64,000 bases of DNA from Saccharothrix sp. HUAS TT1 (lineage in GTDB: Bacteria; Actinomycetota; Actinomycetes; Mycobacteriales; Pseudonocardiaceae), in assembly GCF_040744945.1 (NCBI RefSeq), contig NZ_CP160453.1, positions 6,758,001-6,822,000 of the forward strand, given 5' to 3'. Numbering within the stretch: the first letter of the stretch is position 1; the number at the start of each line of letters is the position of its first letter. Below the pieces are notes generated by a model that saw nothing but the letters and a program-made list of their open reading frames with translations, was not told the DNA's origin and made no database searches. A program made the translations under genes and the position numbers. Below are positions 1,002 to 47,150 of this stretch, piece after piece.

Positions 1002-1056
1002 TCGCTCCTCCGTCACGCGCTCGTCCGATCCACCGCCGCGGGCTGCCGCCCCGGCC

Positions 1057-6379: not shown

Positions 6380-16132
<9,753 letters not shown>

Positions 16133-29423: not shown

Positions 29424-29461
29424 TTGCGACGACCACGTGATCACCCGCTAGCGTGGAATCA
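29424..29461 (+). promoter_or_regulatory. Promoter of the AfsR/SARP-type regulator, probably giving a leaderless transcript
   Basis: A -35-like TTGCGA (29424-29429) and a -10-like TAGCGT (29449-29454) are 19 bp apart. The ATG begins only 6 bp after the -10 box, so transcription would start at or next to the start codon. No clear ribosome site lies upstream of the ATG. Confidence 0.45.
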
Positions 29462-32400
29462 TGCGTTTCGGACTTCTCGGACCCCTCTCCGTCCGGGGAG
29501 ACGACGGCGAGCCGGTGCGGGTGCCGGAGCGCAAGGTCCGCGTCCTGCTCGCCGCGCTGCTGCTCGGCGAGGGCCGCACGGTCTCCACGGCTCGGCTGGT
29601 CGAGGCGCTGTGGGGTGACCGGCACCCGGTGAACCCGACCGCCGCGCTGCAGACCAAGGCGTCCCACGTGCGCCGGTTGCTGGACGTGTTGACGCCGGGC
29701 GGCCGGGAACGGCTCATCACCGAACCCTCGGGCTACCGGCTGGCGCTGGAGCCGGGCGCCGTCGACGCGGAGGTGTTCGCCGAGCTGACGGCCAGGGCGT
29801 ACGCGAGCGAGGACCCGCAGGTCAAGGCGGCGGTGCTGGCCGACGCGCTGGCGCTGTGGCGCGGTCCGGCGCTGGTCGACTTCGTCGACGACGACTTCGC
29901 CCGCGCGGCCACCGCGCGGTTGGAGGAGCTGCGGCTCACCGCGGTCGAGGAGCGGGCCGAGGCGCGGTTGCGGCTGGGCGAGCACCGCCTCCTCGTCGGC
30001 GACCTGGACGACCTGGTGGTGCTGCACCCGTTCCGGGAACGGCTGCGCGCCGCGCACCTGCTGGCCCTGTACCGGTCGGGCAGGCAGAGCGCCGCGCTGA
30101 CCGAGTTCGCGGCGCTGCGCGCCCGGCTGCGCGACGAGTTCGGCCTGGACCCCGGCGACGGCCTGGTCGCGCTGCACCGGGCGATCCTGACCCGCGACCC
30201 GGCGCTCGACTCGCCCGCGGCGCCCGCGACGTCGGTCGCCCGGCCGCGGCACAACGTGCCGGTGCCGCTGACCGAGCTGGTCGGCCGCTCGACGGCGGTG
30301 GACGCGGTGCGGCGGCTGCTGGCCACGAACCGGCTGGTGACGCTCACCGGGCCGGGCGGTGTCGGCAAGACCAGGCTGGCCGTGGAGGCGGCGAACCAGC
30401 TGGTGGACGAGTTCGCCGACGGCGTGTGGCTGGTGGAGCTGGCCGAGCGCAGGCACCGGGGCGTGCCGGCGTCACCACCCGAGTTGGCCGAGGTCGCCGA
30501 GGTGGTGGCGGGCGCGCTGGACGTCCGGGACGACGCCAGCGGCGCGGGCCTGCTCACCGACGGGCCGCCGATCGACCTGCCCGCGCGGCTGAGCGCGGCG
30601 GTGCGGCACAAGCGGATGCTGCTGATCCTGGACAACTGCGAGCACCTGCTGGAGCCGGTGGCCGAACTCGCCGCGACGCTGCTGCGCGCGGGCGCGGACC
30701 TGAAGGTGCTGGCGACCAGCCGCGAACCGCTCGGCCTGGCGGGCGAGGTGCTGTGGCCGGTGCCGCCGCTGGACCTGCCGGGCAGCACCAGGCAGGTCGA
30801 GCGGCTGCGCGAGAGCAGCGCGGTGCGGCTGTTCGTGCAGCGGGCCGCGGCGACCGCGCCGGGGTTCGCGCTGACGGCGGAGAACGCCGAGGCGGTCGCC
30901 TCGGTCTGCGCGAAGCTCGACGGCATCCCGCTGGCGCTGGAGCTGGCCGCCACCAGGGTCCGCGCCCTGGACCCGGCCGAGCTGGCCGCCCGGCTGGACG
31001 ACCGGTTCCGGGTGCTCGACAGCGGGCTGCGCGGCGCGCCGGCCCGGCAGCAGACGCTGCGCGCGGTGATCGACTGGAGCTGGGACCTGCTCACCGCGTC
31101 CGAGCGGACCGCGTTGCGCAGGCTCGCGCTGCTCAGCGGCGACTGGACGGTGGAGGCGGCCGAGGCGGTGGCCGGTTTCGGCGAGCTGGCGCCGCGCGCG
31201 GTGCTGCCGCTGCTGGCCCGGCTGGTGGACCGGTCGCTGGTGGCGACCGCGCAGACCGGCGCGGGCACCCGCTACCGGCTGCTCGGCTCGGTGGCCGCGT
31301 ACGCGCTGGAGCGGCTGCGGGAGGCGGGCGAGGCGGACGCCGTGCTGCTGCGGCACGACGAGTACTACACGGCGCTGTGCGAGCGGGCCGAGCCGCACCT
31401 GCGCGGCCACGAGCAGCAGAAGTGGATCCGCGGGCTCGACGCGGACAACGCCGGCGTCCGCTCCGCGCTGGAGAGCGCGGTGCGCCGCCGGGACGCGCCG
31501 ATGGCGTTGCGCCTGGTCAACGCCCTGTCCTGGTACTGGGTGCTGCGCGGCAGGCTGGGCGAGGCGCACCGGTGGGCCGGTTGCGCGCTCGACCTGGCGA
31601 CCGAGGCGGACGCGGCGGCGGCCAACGTGGCGGCGTGGCGGCTCGGGATCGCGATGCTGGTCGGCGCGGACCCCGGCGGCCGGGACCGGGCGGACGAGGT
31701 GCTGCGCCGGTTCGACCGGCTCGACCACCCGCGGTGCCGGGCGCGGGCCGAGTGGTTCCTGGGCTTCGCGCACCTGACCACCGGCGGCATCGAGGACAGC
31801 GAGGCGCTGGTGCGCAGCGCGTACGTCCGGTTCCGCGAGAGCGACGACCGCTGGGGCACGGCGGCGGCGCTGACCACGCAGAGCCTGCACGCGCTGTTCC
31901 GGGGCGACCTGCGGGCGGTGCGGCGGCACGGCGAGGCCGGGTTGGCGCTGTTCAGCGAGCTGGGCGACCGCTGGGGCCGGCTGCAGGCGGTGGACGCGCT
32001 GGGGTCGCTGGCCGCGATCAGCGGCGACTACGTCGCGGCGGGCAGGCTCGACCGGGACGGCCTGCGCACCGCCGAGGAGCTGGGGCTGTGGACCGAGGTG
32101 TCGCACAGCCTGTCCCGGATGGGCCGGGTGGCCCTGCTGACCGGCGACTACGCCCAGGCCGACGAGCTGCACGAGCGGGCCAGGCGGCTCGCGGCCGAGC
32201 AGAGCAACCGGCTCGGCGAGCTGTTCGCCGAGATGGGCCTGGCCCTGGGCGCGCGCCGGCGCGGCGACTTCGAGCTGGCCGAGCGCAAGCTGCGGGCCCT
32301 GATGCGGTTCACCCCGGACCGCACCCCCGACCACGGCGACGCGCTGCTGCTCGCCGAACTGGGCTTCGTCGCCGAGCAGCGCGGCGCGGCCGACGAGGCG

Positions 32401-32739
32401 CTGCGCCTGCACCTGGACGGCTACGAGGCCGCGCGGGCGACCGGCGACCCCCGCGCGGTGGCCCTGGCGCTGGAGGGCCTGGCGGGCGCGCGCGCCGCGG
32501 CCGGCGCGTTCCGGGACGCCGCGCGGCTGCTCGGCACCGCCGACGCCACCCGGACCTCGGTGCACGCCCCCCTGCCCGAGGCGGAGCGCCAGGACGTCAT
32601 CCGGATCGGCGCGGCCGTCCGGGCGGGCCTGGCCGACGACGAACGGGTCGCCGCCCTCCGGCACGGCGCCGACCTCACGCCCGACGAGTCGGTGCGGCTG
32701 AGCTGCCCGCAGCCGGCCGACGCGCGCACCGCGACCTGA
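29461..32739 (+). CDS. AfsR/SARP-family regulator (winged helix-BTAD-NB-ARC-TPR)
   Basis: Large multidomain transcription activator, 1092 aa. An OmpR-like winged helix lies at about 1-95 (starting MRFGLLGPLSV, with the RKVRVLLAALLL helix). The bacterial transcriptional activator domain is at about 96-240. An NB-ARC ATPase follows with P-loop GPGGVGKT near residue 297 and LLILDNCEHLLE as Walker B. The C-terminal 450 residues are TPR-like repeats. This is the architecture of AfsR-type SARPs, which bind heptamer direct repeats at 11-bp steps. Such repeats are found upstream of several transcription units here, so this protein is a good candidate to bind them (inference). It is read divergently from the exporter gene, and its start appears leaderless. 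Confidence 0.92.
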   Translation: MRFGLLGPLSVRGDDGEPVRVPERKVRVLLAALLLGEGRTVSTARLVEALWGDRHPVNPTAALQTKASHVRRLLDVLTPGGRERLITEPSGYRLALEPGAVDAEVFAELTARAYASEDPQVKAAVLADALALWRGPALVDFVDDDFARAATARLEELRLTAVEERAEARLRLGEHRLLVGDLDDLVVLHPFRERLRAAHLLALYRSGRQSAALTEFAALRARLRDEFGLDPGDGLVALHRAILTRDPALDSPAAPATSVARPRHNVPVPLTELVGRSTAVDAVRRLLATNRLVTLTGPGGVGKTRLAVEAANQLVDEFADGVWLVELAERRHRGVPASPPELAEVAEVVAGALDVRDDASGAGLLTDGPPIDLPARLSAAVRHKRMLLILDNCEHLLEPVAELAATLLRAGADLKVLATSREPLGLAGEVLWPVPPLDLPGSTRQVERLRESSAVRLFVQRAAATAPGFALTAENAEAVASVCAKLDGIPLALELAATRVRALDPAELAARLDDRFRVLDSGLRGAPARQQTLRAVIDWSWDLLTASERTALRRLALLSGDWTVEAAEAVAGFGELAPRAVLPLLARLVDRSLVATAQTGAGTRYRLLGSVAAYALERLREAGEADAVLLRHDEYYTALCERAEPHLRGHEQQKWIRGLDADNAGVRSALESAVRRRDAPMALRLVNALSWYWVLRGRLGEAHRWAGCALDLATEADAAAANVAAWRLGIAMLVGADPGGRDRADEVLRRFDRLDHPRCRARAEWFLGFAHLTTGGIEDSEALVRSAYVRFRESDDRWGTAAALTTQSLHALFRGDLRAVRRHGEAGLALFSELGDRWGRLQAVDALGSLAAISGDYVAAGRLDRDGLRTAEELGLWTEVSHSLSRMGRVALLTGDYAQADELHERARRLAAEQSNRLGELFAEMGLALGARRRGDFELAERKLRALMRFTPDRTPDHGDALLLAELGFVAEQRGAADEALRLHLDGYEAARATGDPRAVALALEGLAGARAAAGAFRDAARLLGTADATRTSVHAPLPEAERQDVIRIGAAVRAGLADDERVAALRHGADLTPDESVRLSCPQPADARTAT

Positions 32740-32964: not shown

Positions 32965-34017
32965 ATGAAATGGTCCGATGTGCACCTGCGCGGCTCGGCG
33001 ATGTGGCTGGGTCGCGCCGAGGACGTCCGCGACGCGGTCGCCGCCGGGCGCTACGACGCGGACGAGGCGATCTCCGACGACCTCGCCGGTGTCCGGATCG
33101 CCGACGAGGGCGACGTGCCGGTCGAGATGGCGGTGACCGCCGCCCGCGGCGCGCTGGAGCGCTCCGGCGTGTCGCCCGAGCAGGTCGAGCTGATCCTGCA
33201 CGCGCACGTCGGCCACCAGGGCGTCGACCAGTTCGCGCCCGCCTCCTACGTGCAGGGCCAAGCCGTGCCCGGCCGGGCGAACGCGGTGGAGATCCGCCAG
33301 GCGTCCAACGGCGGCATGGCGGCGCTGCACCTGGCCGCCGCGTACCTGTCCGCCGCGTCCGGACCGGCCGCGGCCCTGGTGACCACGGCCGACAAGTTCC
33401 CCGAGCCCGCCTGGGACCGCTACCGCGCGGACAACGGCCTGATCCTGGCCGACGGCGCGACGAGCCTGGTGCTGTCCCGGGAGCCCGGCCTGGCCAGGCT
33501 GCTGTCCTCGGTCATCATCGGTGACGCCACGCACGAACAGCTCTACCGCGGCGAGGGGCCGTGGACCGGTTACCCGGGCGAGAGCGGCTGGCCGGTGGAC
33601 CTGCGCGAGCGCAAGGAGCAGTACTTCGCCAAGGGCGCCGACCTGCTGACCGTGATCGGCAGCATCACCCGGCACCAGGAGGAGTCGCTGCTCACCGCGC
33701 TGGACGAGGCCGAGGTGAAGGTCGACGAGGTGGCCCGGTTCGTGTTCCCGCACGTGGGCCGCATCCTCCAGGACTGGGAGTCGCGCAAGGCGCTCGGCAT
33801 CGACGAGTCGCGCACCACCTGGCCGTGGGGCCGCACGGTCGGCCACCTCGGCGCGGGCGACCAGATCGCCGGGCTGAACCACCTGCTGGAGACCGGCGAG
33901 GTCGGCGCGGGCGACAAGGTCGTGCTGTGCGGCGTCGGCAACGGCTGGGCCTACTCCGCCGCGGTCGTGGAGATCACGCAGGACCCGACGTGGGCGAACG
34001 CGCCCGCGGGCAGCTGA
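32965..34017 (+). CDS. KAS III-like acyltransferase with Ser at the active-site Cys position
   Basis: Thiolase-fold protein of 350 aa in the actinomycete KAS III-like group that includes CerJ/ChlB3-type acyltransferases and DpsC-type starter enzymes. The residue at the FabH cysteine position is Ser114 (RQASNGGM). His263 (FPHVGR) and the VGHLGAGDQ segment (His294, Asp299) fall near the FabH His and Asn positions by hand alignment. The enzyme is therefore unlikely to be an ordinary condensing enzyme; acyl transfer from a carrier protein is more likely. The ACP gene follows after 12 bp and is probably its partner. I infer that it moves the aminoacyl group made by the neighbouring genes to an acceptor. 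The start at 32965 has a weak TTGGGG ribosome site. Confidence 0.85.
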   Translation: MKWSDVHLRGSAMWLGRAEDVRDAVAAGRYDADEAISDDLAGVRIADEGDVPVEMAVTAARGALERSGVSPEQVELILHAHVGHQGVDQFAPASYVQGQAVPGRANAVEIRQASNGGMAALHLAAAYLSAASGPAAALVTTADKFPEPAWDRYRADNGLILADGATSLVLSREPGLARLLSSVIIGDATHEQLYRGEGPWTGYPGESGWPVDLRERKEQYFAKGADLLTVIGSITRHQEESLLTALDEAEVKVDEVARFVFPHVGRILQDWESRKALGIDESRTTWPWGRTVGHLGAGDQIAGLNHLLETGEVGAGDKVVLCGVGNGWAYSAAVVEITQDPTWANAPAGS

Positions 34018-34029
34018 GGAGGCCGCACC

Positions 34030-34278
34030 ATGATCACGCACCCGAACGGCACGGTCCGCGAGTTCATCACCGCCCGCTACCCGCAGGCCGAGATCGCCGA
34101 CGACGACGACATCTTCGCGCTGGGCTACGTGAACTCGCTGTTCGCGATGGAGCTGGTCCGGTTCGTGGAGCGGACCTTCAAGATCAGCGTCCCGGAGAAC
34201 GAGCTGCGGCTGGACAACTTCCGCACCATCGACTCGATCGTGGAGCTGGTCCGGCGCGAGTCGCCGGCCGCGGACTGA
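34030..34278 (+). CDS. Free-standing acyl (aminoacyl) carrier protein
   Basis: Carrier protein of 82 aa. The phosphopantetheine site reads GYVNSLFAMELV, with Ser36; Asn replaces the usual Asp of the DSL motif. As far as I recall, the NSLFA form also occurs in carriers used for methoxymalonyl- and related ACP-bound building blocks. A ribosome site is visible in GAGGAGG, 12 bp after the KAS III-like gene, so the two are co-transcribed. The free-standing adenylation domain at 37144 is the most likely loading enzyme, since no other free carrier is present in the window. A strong bidirectional terminator follows. Confidence 0.9.
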   Translation: MITHPNGTVREFITARYPQAEIADDDDIFALGYVNSLFAMELVRFVERTFKISVPENELRLDNFRTIDSIVELVRRESPAAD

Positions 34279-34380
34279 CCCGACCACCGCGCCCCGGGCG
34301 TGGTCTCTCGCACACCCCCAGGTGCGACGACACCACTCTCGGGCGCGGCCCGTCGCTCCACTCCCCCAGGGCGCGACGGC

Positions 34381-34419
34381 GAAGTCCCCCTCGGTGCTGA
34401 TCACACCGAGGGGGACTTC
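34381..34419. terminator. Bidirectional hairpin terminator between the ACP and radical-SAM genes
   Basis: Perfect 16-bp stem: left arm 34381-34396 (begins GAAGTCCC), right arm 34404-34419 (ends GGGACTTC), loop CTGATCA. TTTGTG follows on the plus strand. It sits between two genes converging on it. Confidence 0.85.
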
Positions 34420-34434
34420 TTTGTGCTCGGGGGG

Positions 34435-35754
34435 TCAGACCTCGTCGAACGGGAAGCGGTCGGCGAACGCGGGCTTGAGGTCGTCCAGCCACACCGCCGC
34501 CGGGTCGTACTCGGCGAAGAACGGCTTGCCGACCAGCTCGGCGTCGCGGGCCTGGATCATCCGCAGCGCGAACACCCGCTCGCCGTTCAGCTCCAGCACG
34601 CCGTCCACGCACACCTTGCCCGGCGTGGCGGACATCGACGGCCCGCGCACGGTGCGCGCCAGCCCGGAGACGTTGCGGTAGGCCTCGCGGAACACGTCGT
34701 AGGCCCGCGCCAGCGGCACCGCGAAGTAGTCCCGCGGGCCGGTGTCGCGCTCGACGAACATGTAGTACGGCACCATGCCCAGCGCGACCTGCTTGCGCCA
34801 CATGGCCTCCCACACGGCCGGGTCGTCGTTGATCGAGCGGATCAGCGGCGCCTGGGTGCGGATGACCGCGCCGGTCTCGCGCACCCGCCGGACGGCCTCG
34901 GCCACCACCGGCGGCTCCAGCTCGCGCGGGTGGGTGAAGTGCGCCATGAACGCGAGGTTCCGGCCGGACGCCACGACGTCGGAGAACAGCCGCAGCGTCT
35001 CGTCGGCGTCGGCGTCGGTGACGAACTTGTACGGCCAGTACGCCAGCGACTTGGTGCCGATCCGGATCGACTCGACCTGGTCGAGCTCCAGCAGCGGCTC
35101 GACGTAGCGGCGCAGCACCGCGGCGGTCATGATCATCGGGTCGCCGCCGGTGAACAGCACGCTGGTCACCCGCGGGTGCGCGCGCAGGTGGTCGCGCAGC
35201 TGGTCGACGTCGTCACCGGCCATCTTCAGGTCCGGCTCGCCGACGAACTGCGCCCACCGGAAGCAGTACGTGCAGTAGGCGTGGCAGGTCTGGCCCTGCT
35301 TGGGGAAGAACAGCACGGTCTCGTCGTACTTGTGCTGCACGCCCGACAGCGGCCCGTCGTCCGAGCTGGGCACGTTCAGCTGCAGCTGGCCCGCCGGGTG
35401 CGGGTTGAGCTTGGCCCGCACCCGGTTCGCCGCCCGGGTCAGCTCGCCGATCGGCGCGTCGCGGCGCAGCAGCTCGGACAGGTGGGCCACGTCCGCCTCG
35501 GGCAGCATGTCGGCCTGCGGGAACACCAGGCGGTAGATCGGGTCGTCCGGCGCGGCGGACCAGTCGATCAGGTCCTCGACCACGTAGCTGTTGGTGCGGA
35601 ACGGCAGCACCGCGGCCACCGCGCGGGCCGCCAGCCGCTCAGGCCCGGACAGCCCGGCCCTGGCGAGCAGGCCGTCGAGCTGCTTGACCGTGTAGACCTG
35701 GAACCTGCGGCGACCGACGTCCTCTGTGGACGCCCGGTCGTTGACCAAAGTCAC
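34435..35754 (-). CDS. Radical SAM aminomutase-like enzyme (KamA family)
   Basis: KamA/lysine 2,3-aminomutase-fold protein of 439 aa, expected to bind a [4Fe-4S] cluster, S-adenosylmethionine and PLP and to move an alpha-amino group to the beta carbon. The cluster motif is CHAYCTYC (Cys157, Cys161, Cys164). TGGDP follows as the SAM-binding motif, and Lys380 in ATPGK aligns with the PLP lysine. The two Asp residues that hold the lysine side chain in clostridial lysine 2,3-aminomutase are not present: by hand alignment the first position is Arg336 (FVERDTG) and the second is not acidic. The substrate is therefore probably not lysine. GTG at 35754 is chosen because AAGGAG lies 5 nt upstream; a GTG 24 bp earlier lacks such a site. 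It follows the aminotransferase gene after a hairpin-bearing gap. Confidence 0.85.
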   Translation of the reverse strand: MTLVNDRASTEDVGRRRFQVYTVKQLDGLLARAGLSGPERLAARAVAAVLPFRTNSYVVEDLIDWSAAPDDPIYRLVFPQADMLPEADVAHLSELLRRDAPIGELTRAANRVRAKLNPHPAGQLQLNVPSSDDGPLSGVQHKYDETVLFFPKQGQTCHAYCTYCFRWAQFVGEPDLKMAGDDVDQLRDHLRAHPRVTSVLFTGGDPMIMTAAVLRRYVEPLLELDQVESIRIGTKSLAYWPYKFVTDADADETLRLFSDVVASGRNLAFMAHFTHPRELEPPVVAEAVRRVRETGAVIRTQAPLIRSINDDPAVWEAMWRKQVALGMVPYYMFVERDTGPRDYFAVPLARAYDVFREAYRNVSGLARTVRGPSMSATPGKVCVDGVLELNGERVFALRMIQARDAELVGKPFFAEYDPAAVWLDDLKPAFADRFPFDEV

Positions 35755-35826
35755 TGGCACTCCTTGGGATCGGTGCACCCGACCGCGGGCGGGAACCGCG
35801 CCGGCGTCGTCGACGGCAGGACGAAT

Positions 35827-35856
35827 CCGCGGTCACCACCTCGGTGGTGACCGCGG
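35827..35856 (-). terminator. Hairpin between aminotransferase and radical-SAM genes
   Basis: Perfect 14-bp arms, 35827-35840 (CCGCGGTCACCACC) and 35843-35856, with a 2-base spacer. It is 34 bp past the aminotransferase stop and 72 bp before the radical-SAM start, so it may terminate or attenuate read-through. Confidence 0.6.
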
Positions 35857-35890
35857 CACCCGTGGTGCGGACGTCACTGCCCGGAACGGG

Positions 35891-37147
35891 TCAGCGGCAC
35901 AACTTCGCGAAACTCTCCTCGATGCGGGCGAGGACCCCCGAGACGTGCCGGACGGCCAGCGGGTCGCCGGCGTCCAGCGCCTCCTGCTGCTGGTCGGGGG
36001 TGTCGCCGTAGAGCTGGCTGGTGGCGATGCGGAACCGCAGCGCCGCCGGGTCGTCGCCGAGCAGGTCGCCGGACAGCACCGCGATGCCGAACTCGTCCAT
36101 CAGGTGCTGCTGGAGCGACTTGGCGTCGGTGATGCCGCGCAGCGCCAACGACTCGCGCACCGGCTCGAAGTCCGGGTAGAGGTAGAAACCCGCCGTGGGA
36201 CGGCGGCAGCTCGCGCCCGCGGCGATCAGGCTCTCGTACACGGCGTAGGCGACGCGGCCGTGCAGCCGGGCGCTGCGCTGCAACCGCGCCACCAGCTCCG
36301 GCGGCTCGGCGAACGCGTACGCGGCGACGTCCTGCATGGGCGCGGCCAGCGACGACCAGACCTCGCTGGCGATCGACGTGACCTTCGCGCGGATCAGGTC
36401 GCCCTCGGGGCTCGGGGGGAACCGCACCGCGCCGACGCGCCACCCGCCGAGCGCGAGGTTCTTGCTCAGCCCGGTGGTGATGGTGGTCCGCTCGGGCGCC
36501 ACCGCCGCGGGGCTGAGCACCACCGAGGCCGGGTCGTGGACCAGGTCGCGGTAGATCTCGTCGGAGAGGATGTGGAGGTCTTCCTCCCTGGCCACCTCGG
36601 CGAGCGCGGCGACCAGCTCGGGCGGGGCGAGGGTGCCGGTGGGGTTGTCCGGCAGGGTCAGGATGAGGATGCGCGGGTCGTGGCCCGCGCGCCGGGCGGT
36701 GTGCACGGCCTCGCGCAGCACGTCCGGGTCGGGGACGCCGCCGTAGTCGGGGTGGATCGGCACCTCGATCACGGTCTTGCCCGCCAGCCTGGCCTGCGGC
36801 GCGTAGGTGTTCCACGCCGGGCACGGCAGCAGCACGTCGCCGGGCACCGCGAGCTGGACCGCCCACAGCAGCGGCTTGCTGCCCGGCGCCAGCACCACCT
36901 GCTCGGCGTCGGTGGGCAGGTCGCGCCGGTCGAAGTACCCGGCGACCGCGTCCCGGCTCGCCTGGTCGCCCGCGACCGGGCCGTAGGAGATGCGGCGGGC
37001 GCCGCGGGCCAGGTGCTCGGCCAGCGGCGGGAACACCGGCAGGCGGGACTCGCCGAAGCCGAGGTGGACGATCGACTCGCCCTGGGCGCGGCGGCGGTTG
37101 ACGAGCTGGTCCAGCGCCAGGTTGGGCGCGATGGCGGGGCCGGTCAC
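35891..37147 (-). CDS. PLP-dependent class I/II aminotransferase
   Basis: Fold-type I aminotransferase, 418 aa. Visible sites are PDNPTGT (Asn168), SDEIYRDL (Asp196), the Schiff-base lysine Lys229 in GLSKNLALGGWR, and Arg371 or a nearby Arg in LRFRIATSQ for carboxylate binding. GTG at 37147 overlaps the TGA of the adenylation gene by 4 bp (GTGA), a sign of translational coupling, so the two proteins are probably needed together. It may provide or modify the amino acid that the adenylation domain activates, or remove or install an amino group on the polyketide. Substrate is not predictable by eye. Confidence 0.9.
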   Translation of the reverse strand: MTGPAIAPNLALDQLVNRRRAQGESIVHLGFGESRLPVFPPLAEHLARGARRISYGPVAGDQASRDAVAGYFDRRDLPTDAEQVVLAPGSKPLLWAVQLAVPGDVLLPCPAWNTYAPQARLAGKTVIEVPIHPDYGGVPDPDVLREAVHTARRAGHDPRILILTLPDNPTGTLAPPELVAALAEVAREEDLHILSDEIYRDLVHDPASVVLSPAAVAPERTTITTGLSKNLALGGWRVGAVRFPPSPEGDLIRAKVTSIASEVWSSLAAPMQDVAAYAFAEPPELVARLQRSARLHGRVAYAVYESLIAAGASCRRPTAGFYLYPDFEPVRESLALRGITDAKSLQQHLMDEFGIAVLSGDLLGDDPAALRFRIATSQLYGDTPDQQQEALDAGDPLAVRHVSGVLARIEESFAKLCR

Positions 37148-38748
37148 GCGGTGCTCCCCTCGGTGGCGGCGAACCTCGCCGCGAGGCCCTTGCGGTCGAC
37201 CTTGCCATTGGTGGTGACCGGCAGCTGCTCCAGCACGTGGATCTCCTGGGGGATCATGTACTCCGGCAGCTCCTCCGCGCAGTGCGCGCGCAGCTGCACC
37301 TTGTCGAACGCGCGGGACTCCGAGTCCATGGTGATGAAGGCGCTGAGCACCGGCTCGTCGCCGGGGCCGTCGAGCAGCAGCACGGCCGCCGCCGCCACGC
37401 CGGGGTGGTCGAGCAGCTTGCGCTCGACCTCGCCCAGCTCGACCCGGTTGCCCTGGATCTTGACCTGCGAGTCGATCCGGCCGCCGAAGTACAGCTCGCC
37501 GTGCGCGCCGCGGCGGGCGAGGTCGCCGGTGCGGAACGCGAGCTGGCCCGAGCGCGGGTTGAGCGGGTCCGGGACCAAGGCGCGGGACGTGGCCTCCGGG
37601 TCGCCCCAGTAGCCGAGGAACAGCGCGGAGCTGCGCAGGTAGATCTCCCCCACGCCGCCCGGCTCGCGGACCGGCCTGCCGTCCTCGTCGATCAGGATCA
37701 TCTCCGCGCCGGGGTGGGCGAAGCCGATGGACGTCATGCCCGCGTCCTCGGGCAACGGCCGCGGCACGTCGGTGAACGAGGCCGCCATCGACTCCGTCGA
37801 GCCGTAGCAGTTGACGATCCGCGCGCCCGGCAGCAGCGACTGGAGCTGGCGCAGCTCGGGCAGCGGGAACTCCTCGCCGGAGTACAGCACGCCCTTGATG
37901 TCCAGCTCCGCCAGCAGTTCCGGCTCGTGGCGCAGCACCGGGCGCCAGATCGACGGCGCGCCGTCCACCTGGGTGACGCCCGCGTCGCGGAGGAAGCGGA
38001 GGAACCGGCGCGGCCAGTACAGCCGGTCGCGCGGCACCGGCACGACCGTCGCGCCGCTGCCCAGGGCCAGGCCGATGTCCAGCAGCGAGAAGTCGAACTG
38101 CAGCGGCGAGGTGGTGGCCACGCGCGCGTCGGAGTCGACGATGCCGTGGTAGAGCATGCCGCGGTAGAACGACGTGACGCCGCGGTGGCTCATCACCACG
38201 CCCTTCGGCCTGCCCGTGGTGCCGGACGTGAAGATGATGTAGGCCGGGTCGGTGCTCACCGCCTCGCGGCGGGACCTCGGCCGCGGCGTCGGCTTGCGGT
38301 GCAGTTCGAGCAGGTCCGGGCCGAACACGCCGGCGCCGACGTGCTCCGGCACGTCCTCGCGGCCACCGCCGACGGCCTGCAGGTGCAGCGCGGGCTCGGC
38401 GGCCTCGATGATCGCTTCCAGGCGCTTGGCCGGCGCCTGCGGGCTGACCGGCACGAACGTCAGGCCGAGCGACGAGCAGGCGATCACCAGCGCGATGGCC
38501 GACGCCGAGGTGTCGGACTCGACCACCACCCGGTCGCCCATCTCCAGGCCCAGCTCGCCGAGTTCGACGGCGTAGGCGAACACCTGCCGCTCCAGCTGGC
38601 GGTACGTGACCGTGCGCAGTTCGTCGGCCCCCGCCGCTTCCACCACCGCCGGCCGGTCCGGCGAAGTGGCCGCCGCCGCCAGCAGGAACTCGTGGAAGAA
38701 TTCTTTCGGGTATTGCGGGAAGGCGGAGCCCTGCGGAGTCGAGGTCAT
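37144..38748 (-). CDS. Free-standing amino-acid adenylation enzyme (NRPS A domain)
   Basis: ANL-superfamily adenylating enzyme, 534 aa, with no fused carrier. Core motifs: FTSGTTGRPKG (A3, 173-183), LQFDFSLLD (A4, Asp219), NCYGSTES (A5), FRTGDLARR (A7), KIQGNRVELGEVE (A8) and NGKVDRKGL (A10 lysine near residue 514). Asp219 aligns with the NRPS Asp235 that holds the substrate amino group, which points to an amino acid rather than a simple acid. My hand-read pocket code is D-F-L-S-L-S-C-A-A-K, which I cannot assign. ATG at 38748 has a GAAGGAAG ribosome site. It is coupled to the aminotransferase gene. The free ACP at 34030 is the likely acceptor. Confidence 0.9.
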   Translation of the reverse strand: MTSTPQGSAFPQYPKEFFHEFLLAAAATSPDRPAVVEAAGADELRTVTYRQLERQVFAYAVELGELGLEMGDRVVVESDTSASAIALVIACSSLGLTFVPVSPQAPAKRLEAIIEAAEPALHLQAVGGGREDVPEHVGAGVFGPDLLELHRKPTPRPRSRREAVSTDPAYIIFTSGTTGRPKGVVMSHRGVTSFYRGMLYHGIVDSDARVATTSPLQFDFSLLDIGLALGSGATVVPVPRDRLYWPRRFLRFLRDAGVTQVDGAPSIWRPVLRHEPELLAELDIKGVLYSGEEFPLPELRQLQSLLPGARIVNCYGSTESMAASFTDVPRPLPEDAGMTSIGFAHPGAEMILIDEDGRPVREPGGVGEIYLRSSALFLGYWGDPEATSRALVPDPLNPRSGQLAFRTGDLARRGAHGELYFGGRIDSQVKIQGNRVELGEVERKLLDHPGVAAAAVLLLDGPGDEPVLSAFITMDSESRAFDKVQLRAHCAEELPEYMIPQEIHVLEQLPVTTNGKVDRKGLAARFAATEGSTA

Positions 38749-38844
38749 TCGATTCTTCCTTCGCGCCGACGCGACCGTGGGAATTTGTTTCCCCGATTTT
38801 TCTACCACGGGCCCGGATAGCCGGACCACGGTGCCGCGGCGAAT

Positions 38845-38976: not shown

Positions 38977-39327
38977 TCAGTCGAAGTACCCGTAGACCTG
39001 CTGGAACTTGCCCTCGGCGACGATCACGGCGTCGTAGCCGGTGGCGACCGGGTCGCCGCCGGGCACGCCGAGCCGCCACGTGAACAGCAGCGTTTCGTGG
39101 TGCACGCTGACCACCTTGACCAGGTCGAACATCAGGTCGCCGAACGCCGCGCGCTCAGCGGTCAGGTGGGTGACCAGGTTCTCGACGCCCGTCACGTCGG
39201 CCTGCGGGTCGGTGTAGCGACCGGTCTCGGTGAACACCTCGCCCAGCAGCGACCGCCGGGTGTCGAGGTCGGTGGTGTTCCACGCCTCGATGTACTTCTT
39301 CACCAGTCCGTCGACGTCAACGCTCAT
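38977..39327 (-). CDS. SnoaL-like (NTF2-fold) protein
   Basis: Small NTF2-fold protein of 116 aa. The start is typical of the SnoaL family (VKKYIEAWNTTDLDTRRSLL), with a beta-rich second half. Relatives act as polyketide cyclases, isomerases, hydroxylases or epoxide hydrolases. In polyether and similar pathways, SnoaL-fold proteins work after flavin epoxidases, and a flavin monooxygenase is present at the left end of the window. It is the last gene of the operon that begins with CCR, 60 bp after the first-listed P450. Its reaction here is unknown; ring closure or opening after oxidation is inference. Confidence 0.75.
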   Translation of the reverse strand: MSVDVDGLVKKYIEAWNTTDLDTRRSLLGEVFTETGRYTDPQADVTGVENLVTHLTAERAAFGDLMFDLVKVVSVHHETLLFTWRLGVPGGDPVATGYDAVIVAEGKFQQVYGYFD

Positions 39328-39387: not shown

Positions 39388-40626
39388 TCAGCCGAAGCGC
39401 CGCTCACCGAACACGACCGGGAGTTCCGTGTAACTGCGGATCGCCAGTGCGCCATTCGAGGGAGGCGCGTCGGTGGTCGGGGTCAGCTCGTACTTCACCA
39501 ACTCGGAGAGCGCCACCTGGGTGAGCAGGCGGGCGACCGGCGCGGCGACGCAGAAGTGGATGCCGTGGCCGAAGCCGACGTTGCGCTTGACCGGCCGGGA
39601 CAGGTCGAGCTCGTTCGGGTCGGCGAACGCCCGCGGGTCGCGGTTGGCCGCGCCGAGGAGCATGTAGACCTCCTGGCCCTCGGCCAGCTGGTGGCCCGCG
39701 ATCTCGACCGGCCGCAGCGCGGTCCGGTTGACGATCTGCACGGCGGTGTCGAACCGGATCAGCTCCTCGACCGCGTCGGCGACCTTGTCCGGGTTGGCCC
39801 GGAACCACGCGAGCTGGTCCGGCCTGCTCAGCAGCGCGTGCGTGGCCAGGCCCATCATCGCCTGCGGCGCGCTGAACCCGGGCAGCATGATGTTCATCGC
39901 GGTGGTGATCACCTCGATGCCGGTCAGCCGGTCGCCCTGCTCCTCCGCCTGGACCATCTCGGTCATCAGGTCCTCGGCCGGCTGCTCCCGGCGCAGGTGC
40001 ATCAGGTCCTTGCTGAGCTTGCCCATCCAGTCGCGCAGCCGGTTGCGGGCGTCGACCGACTCCTGCGGCAGGGTGTACTCGGGGTCGAGGCCGCGACCGC
40101 CGTCGGTGGCCATCTCGATCGACTCGGCCAGGTACTCCTCGGGCACGCCCATCAGGGTGTTCATCCCGAACGCGCCGAGCGGCCGGAAGATCGTCGGCGC
40201 GAGGTCGACCACGCCGCCCTTGCGCTGCGCCTCGGCGATCAGGCCGGCCACGTACTCGGTCGCCTTCGGCCGGACGCGCTCGACCAGCCGGGGCGTGAGC
40301 GACTTGGACACCAGGCTGCGGATCCGGGTGTGGTCCGGCGGGTCCATGAACATGAACGCCCGCTGCGGGCCCTCGTCGGTGGGCATCATGCCCTCGGTGG
40401 CCCCGGAACCGTTGCCGCGGCCCAGGTGGGGGTGGCGCAGCGCCTCCGACACCTCGTCGAAGCCGAGCAGCGCCAATCCGATCTTGGTCTTCACCACCGG
40501 CCCGTGCGTCTCGCGGATCCGGTCGAACACCGCGTAGGGGTCGTCGTGGAAGCTCGGGTCCCACGGGTCGTACGGCAGGACGTCGGGCAGGTCTTCGTCG
40601 CTGGAGAGGACGGACGCCTCGGTCAT
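39388..40626 (-). CDS. Cytochrome P450 (I-helix lacks acid/Thr pair)
   Basis: Bacterial class I P450, 412 aa, soluble. The heme loop is FGHGIHFC with Cys359. The K-helix ExxR is Glu288-Arg291. The I-helix, where most P450s have AG-x-E-T-T, reads PGFSAP (249-254), so the conserved acidic residue and threonine are both missing. P450s without this threonine exist (P450eryF has Ala), often using substrate-assisted proton delivery. ATG at 40626 has an AGAGGAAG ribosome site and lies 12 bp after the second P450 gene. Probably oxidises the polyketide or its side chain; needs a ferredoxin and reductase encoded elsewhere. Confidence 0.9.
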   Translation of the reverse strand: MTEASVLSSDEDLPDVLPYDPWDPSFHDDPYAVFDRIRETHGPVVKTKIGLALLGFDEVSEALRHPHLGRGNGSGATEGMMPTDEGPQRAFMFMDPPDHTRIRSLVSKSLTPRLVERVRPKATEYVAGLIAEAQRKGGVVDLAPTIFRPLGAFGMNTLMGVPEEYLAESIEMATDGGRGLDPEYTLPQESVDARNRLRDWMGKLSKDLMHLRREQPAEDLMTEMVQAEEQGDRLTGIEVITTAMNIMLPGFSAPQAMMGLATHALLSRPDQLAWFRANPDKVADAVEELIRFDTAVQIVNRTALRPVEIAGHQLAEGQEVYMLLGAANRDPRAFADPNELDLSRPVKRNVGFGHGIHFCVAAPVARLLTQVALSELVKYELTPTTDAPPSNGALAIRSYTELPVVFGERRFG

Positions 40627-40638
40627 GGACTTCCTCTT

Positions 40639-41928
40639 CTACTTCCTGGTGGACGGCTCGGACGCGTTCGCGGGAACCAGTTCGACCGGCATCCGGAGGA
40701 TCACGGTGTGCTTGTTGTTGGGCGCGTGGACGACCGGGCCGGTCAGCCTGATCTCCTCGACCCGGTCCAGCAGCGCTTCCAGTGCGATCCCGATCTGCCG
40801 ACGCGCGACCTCGGCGCCGAGGCAGGCGTGCCGCCCCGCGCCGAAGGACAGGTGGGGGTTGGGGTTCCTGGTGATGTCCACGGTGGCGGGGTCGGCGAAC
40901 GCGGCCTCGTCCCGGTTGGCCGACGGCCACCAGAAGGTCACCTTCTCCCCTGCCCGGATCACCTGGTCGTGCAGCTCGACGTCACGGGTGGCGGTGCGCC
41001 GGTTGTAGGGGTTCGGCGGGTTCCAGCGCAGCACCTCCTCGATCGCGGTGGGCAGCAGCGAGCGGTCCTCGCGCAGCAGGCGCCACTGCTCGGGGTGCTC
41101 GGCGAAGGTGAGCACGGCGCCCGCGAACGTGTTGCGCGGCTGCTCCAGCCCGGTGATGAACATCAGGGCGAGGTTCGCCTCGCGCTCCCGGTCCGTCATC
41201 GGCCCGCCCTCGGCCAGCTCGCCGCGGGCCAGGGCCGAGCCCAGGTCGACGGCCCGGTCGTCGCGGCGCGCGGGGACGAAGTCGGTGAAGTACCGCTGCA
41301 TCTCCTGGAAGGTGGCGCGGGAGAAGTCGTCCACCACACCGGTGCGCCGGTTGACGAAGCCGAGCACGTCGGCGCCCCACCGCTCCAGCAGCGGCCAGTC
41401 GGCCTCGGGCACGCCCAGCACGGTCGCGATCGCGCGGACCGCGTACAGCTCGCTGACGTCGGTCATGAAGTCGACCCGGCCCGCGCGCACGGCGCCGCCG
41501 ACCAGCGCGTCGGCGAGGTCCGCGAACCGCTCGGCGTAGCGGGCGGCGGCGGGCCCGGCCATCGCCGGCGCGAGCACGTCCTTCATCCGCGCGTGCCGCG
41601 GGTCGTCCATCATGCCGATCAGCACGCCGGCGAGCACCCCGGCGGGCAGGTCTTCGAGGTGCGAGCCGCCACCGGCCCGACCCGGCCCGCCCTGGGTGGA
41701 GAACACCGGGTCCGACGCCGCCGCCACGATGTCGGCGTGCCGGGTGAGCACCCAGAACGGGTCGCCGTCCGCGGAGGTGCCCGGCGGGTGCCGGAGCACC
41801 GGCGCCTCCCGGCGGAGCCGGGCGAACACCTCGTGCGGCACGCCGTCGGCGAACCTGGTGTGGTCGGTGAGGTCGAACCCGTCGAGCACTTCGGGCAACG
41901 CTGCCGTGCCGACGTCTACCGCGGACAT
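40639..41928 (-). CDS. Cytochrome P450 (CYP124/125-like I-helix, Thr replaced)
   Basis: Second P450, 429 aa. The heme loop is FGAGRHACLG with Cys369; ExxR is Glu298-Arg301; the PERF-like region reads WNPPNPYNR. The I-helix reads TGLEQPRNT (259-267). It resembles AGNETTRNT of the CYP124/125-like group, but Gln263 and Pro264 replace the two threonines, while Glu262 is kept. The start has a GGAGGCG ribosome site, 25 bp after the acyl-CoA dehydrogenase-like gene. The neighbouring P450 also lacks the threonine, so the pair may share a peculiarity of substrate or reaction. Function within the pathway is not known. Confidence 0.9.
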   Translation of the reverse strand: MSAVDVGTAALPEVLDGFDLTDHTRFADGVPHEVFARLRREAPVLRHPPGTSADGDPFWVLTRHADIVAAASDPVFSTQGGPGRAGGGSHLEDLPAGVLAGVLIGMMDDPRHARMKDVLAPAMAGPAAARYAERFADLADALVGGAVRAGRVDFMTDVSELYAVRAIATVLGVPEADWPLLERWGADVLGFVNRRTGVVDDFSRATFQEMQRYFTDFVPARRDDRAVDLGSALARGELAEGGPMTDREREANLALMFITGLEQPRNTFAGAVLTFAEHPEQWRLLREDRSLLPTAIEEVLRWNPPNPYNRRTATRDVELHDQVIRAGEKVTFWWPSANRDEAAFADPATVDITRNPNPHLSFGAGRHACLGAEVARRQIGIALEALLDRVEEIRLTGPVVHAPNNKHTVILRMPVELVPANASEPSTRK

Positions 41929-41953: not shown

Positions 41954-43615
41954 TCAGATCCGGTCTAAGAGTTCGGCCGCCGTGCCCGCGAGCACGTCCG
42001 CGCCGACCGCCGCGAAGTCGGGTTCGTCCCGCTCCGCCAGCTGCCGCCACCACCCCGCCAGCCGCTCGCGGGCCGCGTCGCCGTGCACCTCGGCCAGCCG
42101 CTGCGCGGCGGCGTCCCGCTCACCGTCCACCCTGGACAGGACGGCGACGAGGCCGAACAGCTCGCCGGCGATCGCGCCGAGCGCGGTGACGGTGTGCTGG
42201 CGGGCGAACAGGTCGGCGCGGTCCGGGTGGTCCGCGACCAGGCGTTCGGTGGTCTCGTGGAGTTGGGCCAGTTGCGCCGCGGCCTCGGCCAGGTGCGCCC
42301 GGTTGAGGGCGGACAGGTCGGCGTCGAGCGCGGTCGCGGCGGGCTTCGGCGCGGGTTCGCCCCGGTCGTAGCGGCGGCCGAGGGCCAGCCTGGCGACCTG
42401 CTCGTCCAGCCGGAAGTCGATGTTGCCCGCCACCCGCAGGCCGCGGGCGTCCCGGAGCGCGCGCTCCACCGGCGACGGCGTCGCGCCGCGCCTGGCCTTG
42501 CTGGCCGCGGTCTCGAAGCCCTCGCCGCCGAGCAGCGACACCGTGCGGTCCACCGCCCGCCAACCGGCCCGCACGCACAGGTTCTTGGCGACGAACCGCT
42601 CCCACCAGCGGTCGGTGAGGCCGTCGGAGGCCAGGCTCCACCGGATCGCCGAGTCGATCGCGAACGCGTCGGCCGCGGTGGCGGCGAGCATCCGCCGGAC
42701 GTGGTCGTGCGCGACCAGCTCGCGGCCGTCCACCCGTCGCCGGGCGACGAACTCGCGCGACCACTCCAGGCAGGAGCGGGCGATGGCGAGCGCGGGCGCC
42801 CCGGTGAACAGCAGCCTGCCGACCAGCGCGACCATGGCGACCGAGCCGGGCATCCCGACGCCCTCGCCCTCGACCCAGACGTGCTCGGCGGGCACGTGGA
42901 CGTCGTCGAACTCCAGCCACCCGTTCGGCAGGCCCCTGCTGCCCATGAACTCCAACCGCGACCGGACCCGGAACCCCGGCGAGGCGGTGTCGAAGTAGCA
43001 GATGCCCACCCGGCGCTCGTCGCCGTCGACCACCAGCACCGACGCGCCGAGCAGGTCGGCGACCGGACCGTTGCCGATGAACAGCTTCTGCCCGCGCAGC
43101 AGGTAGCCGCGGCCGTCCGGCGTCGGGGTGGCGGTGAGGCCGGGCCGGCTGTTGTTCTGCCCGGCGGGCTCGGTGTCGGCGAACCCGGACAGCGCGCCGT
43201 CCGCCAGCCTGGCGCGCACGAAGTCCGCCAGCGGGCCCTCGGGCAGCGCCCGCAGCAGGGCCGCCGCGCCGACGCCGTTCTGCACGCCCAGCACCTGGCC
43301 GACCGGGACCGACCAGCGCGCCGCCCGCTCGATCACCCGGAACGCGCCCTGGTAGGACAGGCCGAGCCCGCCGAGCTCCTTGTCGTTGGCCAGCAGCAGC
43401 CAGCCCCGCTCGCGGAACCCGTCGACCAGGCCGTCCGGCAGCGCGCCGGTCCGGTCGACCTCGCCCGGGTCGACGACGGCGGCGACGTGCGCGCCGACCT
43501 CCTCCACCAGCGCGTCGGCCGAGCGGTCCGGTTCCGGGAACGCGCGCAGCGCGGCCCAGTCCAGCACACCGGTGTCGACGCTGTCGAAGAACGTCGGCAG
43601 CACGCCGTCAGCCAT
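41954..43615 (-). CDS. Acyl-CoA dehydrogenase-like flavoprotein, long form
   Basis: ACAD-fold FAD protein of 553 aa, about 150 longer than the usual 380-400 because of a helical C-terminal extension (about 430-553). ACAD motifs visible: GLSYQGAFRV, SGFADTEPAG (FAD/substrate loop), GNGPVADLL, and VSLLGGEGFETA with PSPVERALRDARG. At the position of the MCAD catalytic Glu (in YEGT) the sequence reads AGNI, so the usual base is missing by hand alignment. It might desaturate the alkylmalonyl precursor, as TcsD-type enzymes do in FK506 biosynthesis, or act as a flavin oxygenase of ACAD fold. ATG at 43615 (AAGGGAG ribosome site) is preferred to a TTG 18 bp upstream. It is 24 bp from the dehydrogenase gene. 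Confidence 0.85.
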   Translation of the reverse strand: MADGVLPTFFDSVDTGVLDWAALRAFPEPDRSADALVEEVGAHVAAVVDPGEVDRTGALPDGLVDGFRERGWLLLANDKELGGLGLSYQGAFRVIERAARWSVPVGQVLGVQNGVGAAALLRALPEGPLADFVRARLADGALSGFADTEPAGQNNSRPGLTATPTPDGRGYLLRGQKLFIGNGPVADLLGASVLVVDGDERRVGICYFDTASPGFRVRSRLEFMGSRGLPNGWLEFDDVHVPAEHVWVEGEGVGMPGSVAMVALVGRLLFTGAPALAIARSCLEWSREFVARRRVDGRELVAHDHVRRMLAATAADAFAIDSAIRWSLASDGLTDRWWERFVAKNLCVRAGWRAVDRTVSLLGGEGFETAASKARRGATPSPVERALRDARGLRVAGNIDFRLDEQVARLALGRRYDRGEPAPKPAATALDADLSALNRAHLAEAAAQLAQLHETTERLVADHPDRADLFARQHTVTALGAIAGELFGLVAVLSRVDGERDAAAQRLAEVHGDAARERLAGWWRQLAERDEPDFAAVGADVLAGTAAELLDRI

Positions 43616-43639
43616 GACTCCCTTTCCGGACAAAGCGGT

Positions 43640-44524
43640 TCAGCTCGCGTACTCGTAGAAGCCGCGCCCGCTCTTGCGACCGAGGAAACCGCCCTCGATC
43701 ATCCGCAGGAGCAGGGCGGGTGGCGCGTGCAGCGGCTCTTTCGTCTCCTCGTACATGGCGTGGCCGACAGCGGCGATCGTGTCCAGGCCGATCAGGTCGA
43801 CCAGCGCGAGTGGACCCATCGGGTGGCCGCAGCCCTGCGTCATGCCCCGGTCGACGTCCTCCGCACCGGCCACACCGACCTCGACCATCCGCACGGCGGC
43901 CAGCAGGAACGGCACGAACAGCGAGTTCACCACGAACCCGGCCTGGTCCTTGGCGTGCACCACCTGCTTGCCGAGCCCGTCCACCAGGAACGCGGTGGTC
44001 CGGGCGGTGGTGGCGGCCGACGTGCGCAGCGAGGCGACCACCTCGACCAGCGGCATCACCTGGACCGGGTTGAACAGGTGCACCCCGATCACCCGGGACG
44101 GGTCGGCGGTGGCGCGGCCGAGCTTCATGATCGGGAGGGACGACGTGTTCGACGCGAGCACCGCATCGGGGTCCTCCACCACCGCGTCCAGCGTGGCGAA
44201 CACCTCGACCTTCTCCGGCAGGCTCTCGGCGATCGCCTCCAGCACGAACTCGCGGTCGCGCAGGTCCTTGAGGTCGGTGGTGAACGCGACCCGGCCGAGC
44301 ACGTCGACCCGCTCGGCCTCGGAGATCTTCTCCTTGCGCACCAACCGGTCCAGCGACCGGCCGAGCCGCTCCCGGCCGCGGTCGGCCGACTCCTGGCTCG
44401 ACGCGGCCACCAGGACGTCCAGGCCGCGGCGCGCGCAGATCTCGGCGAAGCCCGCGCCCATCTGCCCGCAGCCGACCACGCCGACCCGCCGCACGCCGGT
44501 CGCCCCCGGGGCGGCCCCGGTCAC
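43640..44524 (-). CDS. 3-hydroxyacyl-CoA (3-hydroxybutyryl-CoA) dehydrogenase
   Basis: NAD(P)-dependent 3-hydroxyacyl-CoA dehydrogenase, 294 aa, normal length. A Rossmann loop VGVVGCGQMGAG lies near the N-terminus, followed by SNTSSLPI, the catalytic-His segment GVHLFNPVQVMPLVE and the C-terminal domain ending GRGFYEYAS. GTG at 44524 overlaps the KAS III TGA by 4 bp. In the CCR-KAS III-dehydrogenase set known from isobutylmalonyl-CoA pathways (ansalactam, divergolide) this enzyme reduces the 3-oxoacyl-CoA made by KAS III, so that after dehydration CCR can carboxylate the enoyl-CoA. The dehydratase is not encoded here and may come from primary metabolism. Confidence 0.92.
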   Translation of the reverse strand: MTGAAPGATGVRRVGVVGCGQMGAGFAEICARRGLDVLVAASSQESADRGRERLGRSLDRLVRKEKISEAERVDVLGRVAFTTDLKDLRDREFVLEAIAESLPEKVEVFATLDAVVEDPDAVLASNTSSLPIMKLGRATADPSRVIGVHLFNPVQVMPLVEVVASLRTSAATTARTTAFLVDGLGKQVVHAKDQAGFVVNSLFVPFLLAAVRMVEVGVAGAEDVDRGMTQGCGHPMGPLALVDLIGLDTIAAVGHAMYEETKEPLHAPPALLLRMIEGGFLGRKSGRGFYEYAS

Positions 44525-46865: not shown

Positions 46866-47150
46866 AGCCGCCTCTCGGATTACCGGAGCACAATCAGCCC
46901 GCGGCGGCGGATGACCGCCGGTCGGGGCGCACCGGTGCGTCAGCACGGATGCGGATCGGTGCCACCGAAGCTAGCCACGGCCCCCGGGGCCGACCACCCC
47001 TCTCCGGCCCCTGTTCGGGGTCGTCGGGGGGCACAGGGGTCGGTCCGGGGTGGTGCTGGGGTTGCCGCCGTCACGCGCCGGCGGCCATATTCCGAAACGC
47101 CGGGCGACCGGTGCACGGACCACCTGACCAGCGTCACGACCGGGGGACAG
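46866..47150. promoter_or_regulatory. Divergent promoter region between CCR operon and carboxylase gene
   Basis: Two arrays of the cluster heptamer point in opposite directions. Toward CCR (minus strand): CAGGGGC (47013-47007) and GAGGGGT (47002-46996) at 11-bp steps, then 22 bp to a -10-like TAGCTT (46973-46968). Toward the carboxylase (plus strand): CAGGGGT (47034-47040), CCGGGGT (47045-47051) and CTGGGGT (47056-47062), again at 11-bp steps, then 23 bp to a -10-like CATATT (47086-47091). This is the clearest example of the motif in the window. Confidence 0.6.

Follow-up and report, generated by a model that had tools for sequence, protein, structure and literature searches.

A modular polyketide synthase (PKS) cluster of Saccharothrix sp. 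HUAS TT1 raises the question of why genes of the kind that supply beta-amino acids are found beside a synthase that provides its own starter unit. The cluster lies in a stretch of 64,000 nucleotides (assembly GCF_040744945.1, contig NZ_CP160453.1, positions 6,758,001 to 6,822,000), here called the window, and the element under study is a set of five genes at positions 32965-38748 of it. These are five intact open reading frames (ORFs), each with a significant family match, for a ketoacyl synthase III (KAS III)-like protein, a free acyl carrier protein (ACP), a KamA-type radical S-adenosylmethionine (SAM) protein, a pyridoxal phosphate (PLP) enzyme and a free adenylation enzyme. Their gathering, first noticed in a first-pass annotation of the sequence, is real and not a chance one, since an orthologous cluster in a different family (G483) carries all five. 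With moderate confidence, the set is read as a module for 3-aminobutyrylation that was added to a small modular polyketide pathway. The KAS III and ACP genes, separated by 12 bases, are transcribed rightwards, and the adenylation, PLP and KamA genes are oriented leftwards, facing them; the PLP and adenylation genes overlap by 7 bases, given a GTG start for the former. The ATG at 38748, where the first-pass annotation ended the set, is internal to the adenylation frame 37144-38829 and is its likelier start.

Regarding the adenylation enzyme, the closest solved relative is IdnL1 from incednine biosynthesis (63% identity), followed by HitB (58%). The selecting residue is Leu220 in IdnL1 and Gly220 in CmiS6, as given, along with the Protein Data Bank codes, in excerpts of PMC11253843. 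The window enzyme carries the Asp-Phe residues of IdnL1 and, as a feature of incednine-type 3-aminobutyrate supply, a leucine at the Leu220 position, where HitB has phenylalanine; this position was placed four residues after the conserved Asp of Asp-Phe from the alignment and an assumed tag on the crystallised chain. Owing to the IdnL1-like identity and pocket residues, 3-aminobutyrate is expected to be the substrate, and (S)-3-aminobutyrate is predicted as the amino acid of the pathway.

The PLP protein belongs by fold to the aminotransferases (PF00155) and had been annotated as such, but it is more likely an IdnL3-type beta-glutamate decarboxylase. In the incednine pathway, as excerpted from PMC11284099, IdnL4 is a likely glutamate 2,3-aminomutase, a role that disruption of idnL4 is reported to confirm, and IdnL3 is the PLP enzyme converting beta-glutamate into (S)-3-aminobutyrate. 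Sixteen loci outside the window whose adenylation gene shares 58% identity or more with that of the window were compared, the genes of relatives being called with a simple ORF caller and named by their match to window proteins or by sequence reading. Thirteen of them hold KamA, and in all 13 the PLP gene adjoins it; nine of these also have VinK and VinM and so represent macrolactam loading sets, two have VinM only (L176, L180), one neither (L175, 20 kb), and the last is G483. The locus L119 presents, between two PKS genes, a P450, KamA, the PLP gene, VinK, VinM, the adenylation enzyme, VinL and VinJ, with no second decarboxylase candidate visible beside the PLP gene in that stretch. This pairing and gene content, combined with the published role of IdnL3, point to the decarboxylase function. 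In addition, 25 PLP proteins, including that of the window, form one clade (100/100) with nine distant relatives outside, and its members accompany KamA except in five loci. The latter (L178, L179, L184-L186) lie near a LuxR-type gene in the absence of KamA and constitute a clade of their own, some active-site stretches being altered in L185 and L186.

KamA and the PLP gene are also paired in eight further loci that have no IdnL1-like gene. By sequence reading, six of them lie near nonribosomal peptide synthetase-type genes (L177, L183, L187-L190), one is beside a PanC-like gene (L181) and L182 has a close relative of that pair, and these two proteins may supply an amino acid in still other pathways. 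Adjoining the core cluster of G001, a 50% relative of the PLP protein stands beside a gene 28% identical to the adenylation enzyme (L248, 5242-6525), perhaps for another activated side group.

The radical SAM protein matches TIGR00238 at E 1.4e-34, under the curated cut-off of that model, and L-lysine 2,3-aminomutase (2A5H) at E 4e-22, with a CX3CX2C motif and a conserved GK lysine that we take to be the PLP lysine. In all 36 KamA sequences compared, that of the window included, the Asp in the PYYIYQCD stretch of lysine 2,3-aminomutase is replaced by Arg, which would fit an acidic substrate better than lysine. The protein is 84% identical to its counterpart in G483 and 71-77% identical to lone KamA genes (loci L004-L083), which are common (at least 580 confirmed stretches) and occur chiefly in Thermomonosporaceae and Streptosporangiaceae; in a sample of 80 of these loci, no relative of the adenylation enzyme, PLP protein, ACP or KAS III was found in the flanks, of varying length, at E 1e-8. 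The KamA tree was built with nine of the 80; in the KamA and PLP trees 11 loci are labelled as macrolactam, eight of which have both VinK and VinM in the stretch examined. The lone genes that group with the KamA of the window belong to the same two families, and the paired-KamA branch is separate (100/100). That the whole block was acquired from a macrolactam cluster was considered and is unsupported for KamA, which groups with the lone genes (100/99); no donor lineage is resolved in the trees of the PLP protein and adenylation enzyme.

The comparison with sister clusters indicates what the set is attached to. Those of G001, G002 and G023, from the same genus, and of G483 share with the window a core formed by the FAD monooxygenase-like protein, the KSQ-type PKS, two P450s, the acyl-CoA dehydrogenase-like flavoprotein and the 3-hydroxybutyryl-CoA dehydrogenase. 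The KSQ domain is found in all five clusters, with or without aminoacyl genes. As the clusters of G001, G002 and G023 have this core and lack them, the aminoacyl genes appear to be an accessory add-on of a polyketide started without them and not a starter supply. In G483, the five genes are 72-84% identical to those of the window, compared to 37-70% for 14 other shared genes, and the block keeps the same order of adenylation, PLP and KamA genes followed by ACP and KAS III on the opposite strand, with the SARP gene between the halves; neither VinK nor VinJ is matched in the 80 kb examined. The set thus recurs, without VinK, in a second family, a point for which the first-pass annotation had proposed a gene-neighbourhood search. 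No KAS III of this kind was seen in the stretches examined of G001 and G002; over the whole genome, G002 lacks one at E 1e-40, and G001 has a single one, of 35% identity, on a different contig.

The arrangement is infrequent. At E 1e-120, a KAS III relative occurs in one of the 204 genomes of the genus of G483, namely G483 itself, and at E 1e-80 in 12 of 386 genomes of the family of the window, its own included. IdnL1-like genes at E 1e-150 occur in seven of 394 genomes of the class, again counting that of the window; the other six carry the KAS III set (G483), VinK (G072, G585, G536), VinM and VinL with no VinK in 20 kb (G657), or VinM on a 7.4 kb contig (G444). Relatives of the flavoprotein at E 1e-70 were found in 15 of 390 genomes, counted likewise, in a survey of its loci that left out G016, G272 and G013. 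Seven of these loci were set aside as other clusters (G277, G154, G021, G009, G018, G276, G213), with a flavoprotein of 41-45% identity, adenylation-type genes of only 28-34% and no match at E 1e-5 to PKS 1, the FAD monooxygenase, KAS III or an aminoacyl gene of the window; G288, with a flavoprotein, one P450 and no PKS match, was also discarded. In a literature search of titles and abstracts, which is weak as most subscription journals lie outside its coverage, no paper describing such a set outside macrolactams was recognised. The claim of a new way to combine these parts holds for the arrangement, conserved in two families, and not for the parts, which are known.

The first-pass annotation had also found no VinK-like acyltransferase (AT) and no protective aminoacyl/peptidase step, and this is borne out. 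No VinK-, VinM-, VinJ- or VinL-like gene occurs at E 1e-3 within the window or up to 40 kb to either side of it, save a 29% match of VinM to the adenylation gene itself, so that a VinK-like AT does not lie just outside either. In the 8.7 Mb genome, VinK gives only two weak matches, at E 1.4e-4 to the PKS of the window and at E 8e-4 to a 4197-residue frame, and VinJ gives none at E 1e-10, although the same query matches relatives of 63-97% identity in seven other macrolactam-type loci. Genome-wide, VinM has 75 matches at E 1e-3, the best (43%) about 0.3 Mb from the window. Instead of a PKS loading ACP for a dipeptidyl starter, there is a KSQ-AT-ACP module, and macrolactam PKSs are not known to have a KSQ. 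Lacking VinM, VinK and VinJ counterparts and such a loading ACP, the set falls outside the macrolactam loading systems; it rather resembles the first half of macrolactam loading, presumably followed by a KAS III-type transfer.

The ACP is not of the VinL type, being 17-22% identical to three ACPs of that type and 72% to the ACP of G483, where the KAS III and ACP genes are paired as in the window. An aminomalonyl- or methoxymalonyl-ACP supply was considered owing to its NS-type motif and to a 54% relative in L177, located beside acyl-CoA dehydrogenase and hydroxyacyl-CoA dehydrogenase genes, and rejected as the main reading because the flavoprotein and dehydrogenase also occur in G001, G002 and G023 with no ACP relative in the stretches examined there.

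The KAS III protein is 43% identical to DpsC, its closest solved relative, and 78-80%, depending on the alignment, to the G483 protein, with which it forms a supported pair (100/97). The serine nucleophile and the His-Asp pair expected of the family are all present by alignment. His263 corresponds to the DpsC histidine that excerpts of PMC9573744 link to the enolization step, and it is replaced by Ala in G483 and by Asn in G023, a variation that speaks for acyl transfer over decarboxylative condensation. The proposed chemistry would not be without precedent, as AfcL, a KAS III-like protein of the AFC-BC11 pathway, takes beta-alanyl thioesters and hands them to an amine (PMC12186527). That pathway likewise employs an adenylation enzyme and a carrier protein that are both free-standing; in contrast, AfcL has a Cys nucleophile and acts in peptide release in a Burkholderia lipopeptide pathway to which the excerpts of PMC12186527 ascribe no modular PKS. 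Related Ser-type KAS III genes were also seen near cysteine desulfurase-like and AMP-ligase-like genes (L194, L195). This gene mix resembles that of paulomycin-type clusters.

The claim that the PKS makes its own starter is supported by the KSQ motif (DSGQSSS, at residue 161 of the protein encoded at 16179-24269, minus strand) and the intact KSQ-AT-ACP module. Four AT domains carry HAFH, which we take to be a malonyl-type motif, and the last one VASH. The HxxxGxxxxP motif of the first dehydratase domain is altered, making one double bond less sure, and the ketoreductases of the final two modules have no catalytic Tyr; the third extension module of G483 shows no ketoreductase motif. The synthase thus ends, like alpha-pyrone-forming modular PKSs, with two unreduced extensions and thioesterase release. 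With two dehydrated units, then two ketones, ahead of a thioesterase, the product is likely a 4-hydroxy-2-pyrone that bears a pentadienyl side chain; a thioesterase-released pyrone has a precedent in venemycin (PMC10204065, in excerpt).

The pathway that we propose would start with the KamA-type protein, which by its family would convert L-glutamate into beta-glutamate by shifting its amino group, and the paired PLP protein would decarboxylate beta-glutamate to (S)-3-aminobutyrate. Then, as its sequence and pocket strongly suggest, the IdnL1-like enzyme would adenylate 3-aminobutyrate and load it on the free ACP. These three steps are together regarded as likely. That a beta-aminoacyl-ACP is made, as the first-pass annotation had claimed, is very probable considering the adenylation enzyme and its pocket, the KamA/PLP pairing and the free ACP. 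Finally, to judge from gene pairing and family, KAS III would accept the aminoacyl group on Ser114 and pass it to the product of the KSQ-started PKS, either released or already tailored, forming an ester, an amide or a C-acyl bond with a hydroxyl, an amine or a carbon. This transfer is fairly probable: an attachment to the PKS product, also foreseen in the first-pass annotation, is the natural reading since the aminoacyl genes are accessory among the sister clusters, and the part of KAS III as the transferase is what we infer. The amino group would not be protected by a second amino acid, perhaps since no chain extension follows, and the SnoaL-like protein might act on the aminoacylated product, which is a guess.

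Several observations weigh against this proposal. The KamA of the window scores 81 bits on the glutamate-specific model TIGR04368, whose cut-off is 650 bits, and it clusters with lone actinobacterial genes (100/99) apart from the KamA of macrolactam loci, so its substrate could differ from glutamate. The decarboxylase role is deduced from the gene neighbourhood, and three of the 16 loci with an IdnL1-like gene (L277, a 7.4 kb contig, L279 and L280) have neither KamA nor the PLP gene in the stretch examined. Moreover, the sister cluster of G023 has a KAS III gene (54%) and no aminoacyl gene, its genome showing neither an IdnL1-like gene at E 1e-100 nor a PLP relative at E 1e-90, and also no close KamA, the best match being at E 1.7e-18. 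This suggests that the KAS III subfamily need not depend on an aminoacyl donor and can use another one.

The G023 case leads to the alternative that KAS III moves another acyl group, for instance from CoA, as the G023 protein must, and that the aminoacyl-ACP has a different, unrecognised user. The transfer of malonyl to a sugar by CerJ would be in line with it, but no condensation domain or VinK-like protein was recognised in the window, and the KAS III proteins of the window and G483 are a supported pair, both encoded beside an ACP gene; it is considered improbable. Still less credence is given to 3-aminobutyrate being the PKS starter, with KAS III in the place of VinK loading the first module towards a small lactam. 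The KSQ-AT-ACP module is intact in all five clusters, with and without aminoacyl genes, and the protection genes are missing (VinJ from the whole genome, VinM from the vicinity of the cluster), which prevails here over the closeness of the adenylation enzyme, G483 apart, to IdnL1 and the enzymes of macrolactam-type loci, and over the similarity of KAS III to DpsC, which is a priming enzyme.

The identity of the activated acid has also to be weighed, as it might be another small beta-amino acid, such as beta-alanine, 3-aminopentanoate or beta-glutamate. The second of these is an alternative substrate of IdnL1 (PMC11284099, in excerpt) and the KamA comes from a lineage other than that of macrolactam loci; nevertheless, the pocket residues agree with IdnL1 and the PLP partner is the one that accompanies KamA and IdnL1-like genes, making this rather doubtful. 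A different outcome of the last step would be a C-C bond, formed by KAS III in a Claisen/Dieckmann, tetronate-like reaction between the 3-aminobutyryl group and the beta-diketo product of the PKS, after which the amine would close an N-ring, perhaps aided by the SnoaL-like protein. DpsC-type enzymes are said to condense (PMC9573744, in excerpt), the predicted PKS product contains a nucleophilic beta-dicarbonyl, and of the five clusters only the two that carry aminoacyl genes showed the SnoaL gene, for which the stretches inspected of G001, G002 and G023 gave no match. Even so, this condensation is rather unlikely, as the alanine of the G483 orthologue at the DpsC enolization position better fits plain acyl transfer and the thioesterase domain is able to release the chain without KAS III. 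In its specific form, where the Ser-type KAS III would C-acylate the beta-dicarbonyl or pyrone with an unprotected beta-aminoacyl-ACP and the amine, perhaps with the SnoaL-like protein, would close a six-membered tetramate-like or pyridone-type N-heterocycle, it is held to be unlikely. Transfer of 3-aminobutyrate by KAS III to the PKS product is accordingly kept as the preferred reading.

The coordinates of the set and its neighbours are collected in Table 1. To the left of the set are what we take to be a SARP-type regulator, a transporter and a LuxR-type regulator, as well as the three PKS genes. To the right, no FabH-like gene was seen among the window genes at 43640-48575, and one stands beside the hydroxybutyryl-CoA dehydrogenase and reductase genes in the sister clusters of G023, G001 and G483 (L213, L232, L273), so that the acetoacetyl-CoA of the window pathway may come from elsewhere.

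Table 1. Position, strand and supporting evidence of the genes of the window discussed here.
Feature	Position	Strand	Evidence
FAD monooxygenase-like protein (presumed name), core gene, cut by the window edge	3..1064	-	60-68% in G483, G023, G002, G001
PKS 3: KS-AT(VASH)-(KR without Tyr)-ACP-TE	1057..6369	-	motif scan, Pfam thioesterase
PKS 2: KS-AT-DH-KR-ACP, KS-AT-(KR without Tyr)-ACP	6380..16132	-	motif scan, Pfam
PKS 1: KSQ-AT-ACP loading module, then KS-AT-DH-KR-ACP	16179..24269	-	motif scan, Pfam
Large regulator, presumably SARP-type	29461..32739	+	61% in G483
KAS III-like protein, Ser-type (Ser114, His294, Asp299), proposed 3-aminobutyryl transferase	32965..34017	+	PF08541/PF08545; DpsC E 2e-75, CerJ, ChlB3; catalytic residues by alignment
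Free ACP, GYVNS motif	34030..34278	+	PF00550
KamA-family radical SAM protein, proposed glutamate 2,3-aminomutase (IdnL4 role)	34435..35778	-	TIGR00238 E 1.4e-34 (under cut-off); 2A5H E 4e-22; motifs
Class I/II aminotransferase-fold PLP protein, proposed beta-glutamate decarboxylase (IdnL3 role)	35891..37150	-	PF00155; gene pairing; clade
IdnL1-like beta-aminoacyl-ACP synthetase, free adenylation enzyme	37144..38829	-	5JJQ IdnL1 E 4e-208; 63% identity; pocket
SnoaL-like small protein	38977..39327	-	PF12680; 37% in G483
Cytochrome P450 (a), core gene	39388..40626	-	PF00067; in G483, G023, G002, G001
Cytochrome P450 (b), core gene	40639..41928	-	PF00067; in G483, G023, G002, G001
Acyl-CoA dehydrogenase-like flavoprotein, core gene	41954..43633	-	PF00441/PF02770/PF02771; in G483, G023, G002, G001
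3-Hydroxybutyryl-CoA dehydrogenase, extender supply	43640..44560	-	NF005875 above cut-off
Crotonyl-CoA carboxylase/reductase-like dehydrogenase (presumed name)	45513..46865	-	PF08240/PF00107; 70-74% relatives in G483, G023, G001
Acyl-CoA carboxylase beta-like protein	46911..48575	+	PF01039

Compared to known systems, the set shares with the incednine genes (IdnL4, IdnL3, IdnL1) a protein of the radical SAM aminomutase family, a PLP enzyme and a 3-aminobutyrate-type adenylation enzyme, but it is proposed to feed KAS III via an unrelated ACP instead of the VinM/VinK/PKS loading route, and its KamA is of a different lineage from that of the macrolactam loci compared. With vicenistatin-type loading (VinN, VinL, VinM, VinK, VinJ) it has in common a free beta-aminoacyl-ACP synthetase and a free ACP, differing in the KSQ loading module, in the ACP and in the Vin counterparts missing from the genome (VinK, VinJ) or the region (VinM). 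The KAS III protein belongs to the family of DpsC, CerJ and ChlB3, with a Ser nucleophile as in DpsC and a His-Asp pair as described for ChlB3; unlike theirs, its donor is predicted to be an aminoacyl-ACP.

Searches for macrolactam clusters have used beta-amino acid supply genes as queries (PMC10662134, in excerpt), and in the window the same kind of genes serve a polyketide with its own KSQ starter. Sister clusters that have or lack the set allow a natural comparison of before and after. If the KAS III transfer is true, rules for macrolactam mining would need VinK/VinM/VinJ genes, since those for the beta-amino acid would be insufficient, and the set would represent a compact, protection-free tool for attaching 3-aminobutyrate to polyketides. 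Should C-acylation and ring closure be true instead, it would be a protection-free route from a beta-amino acid to a six-membered tetramate-like or pyridone-type ring.

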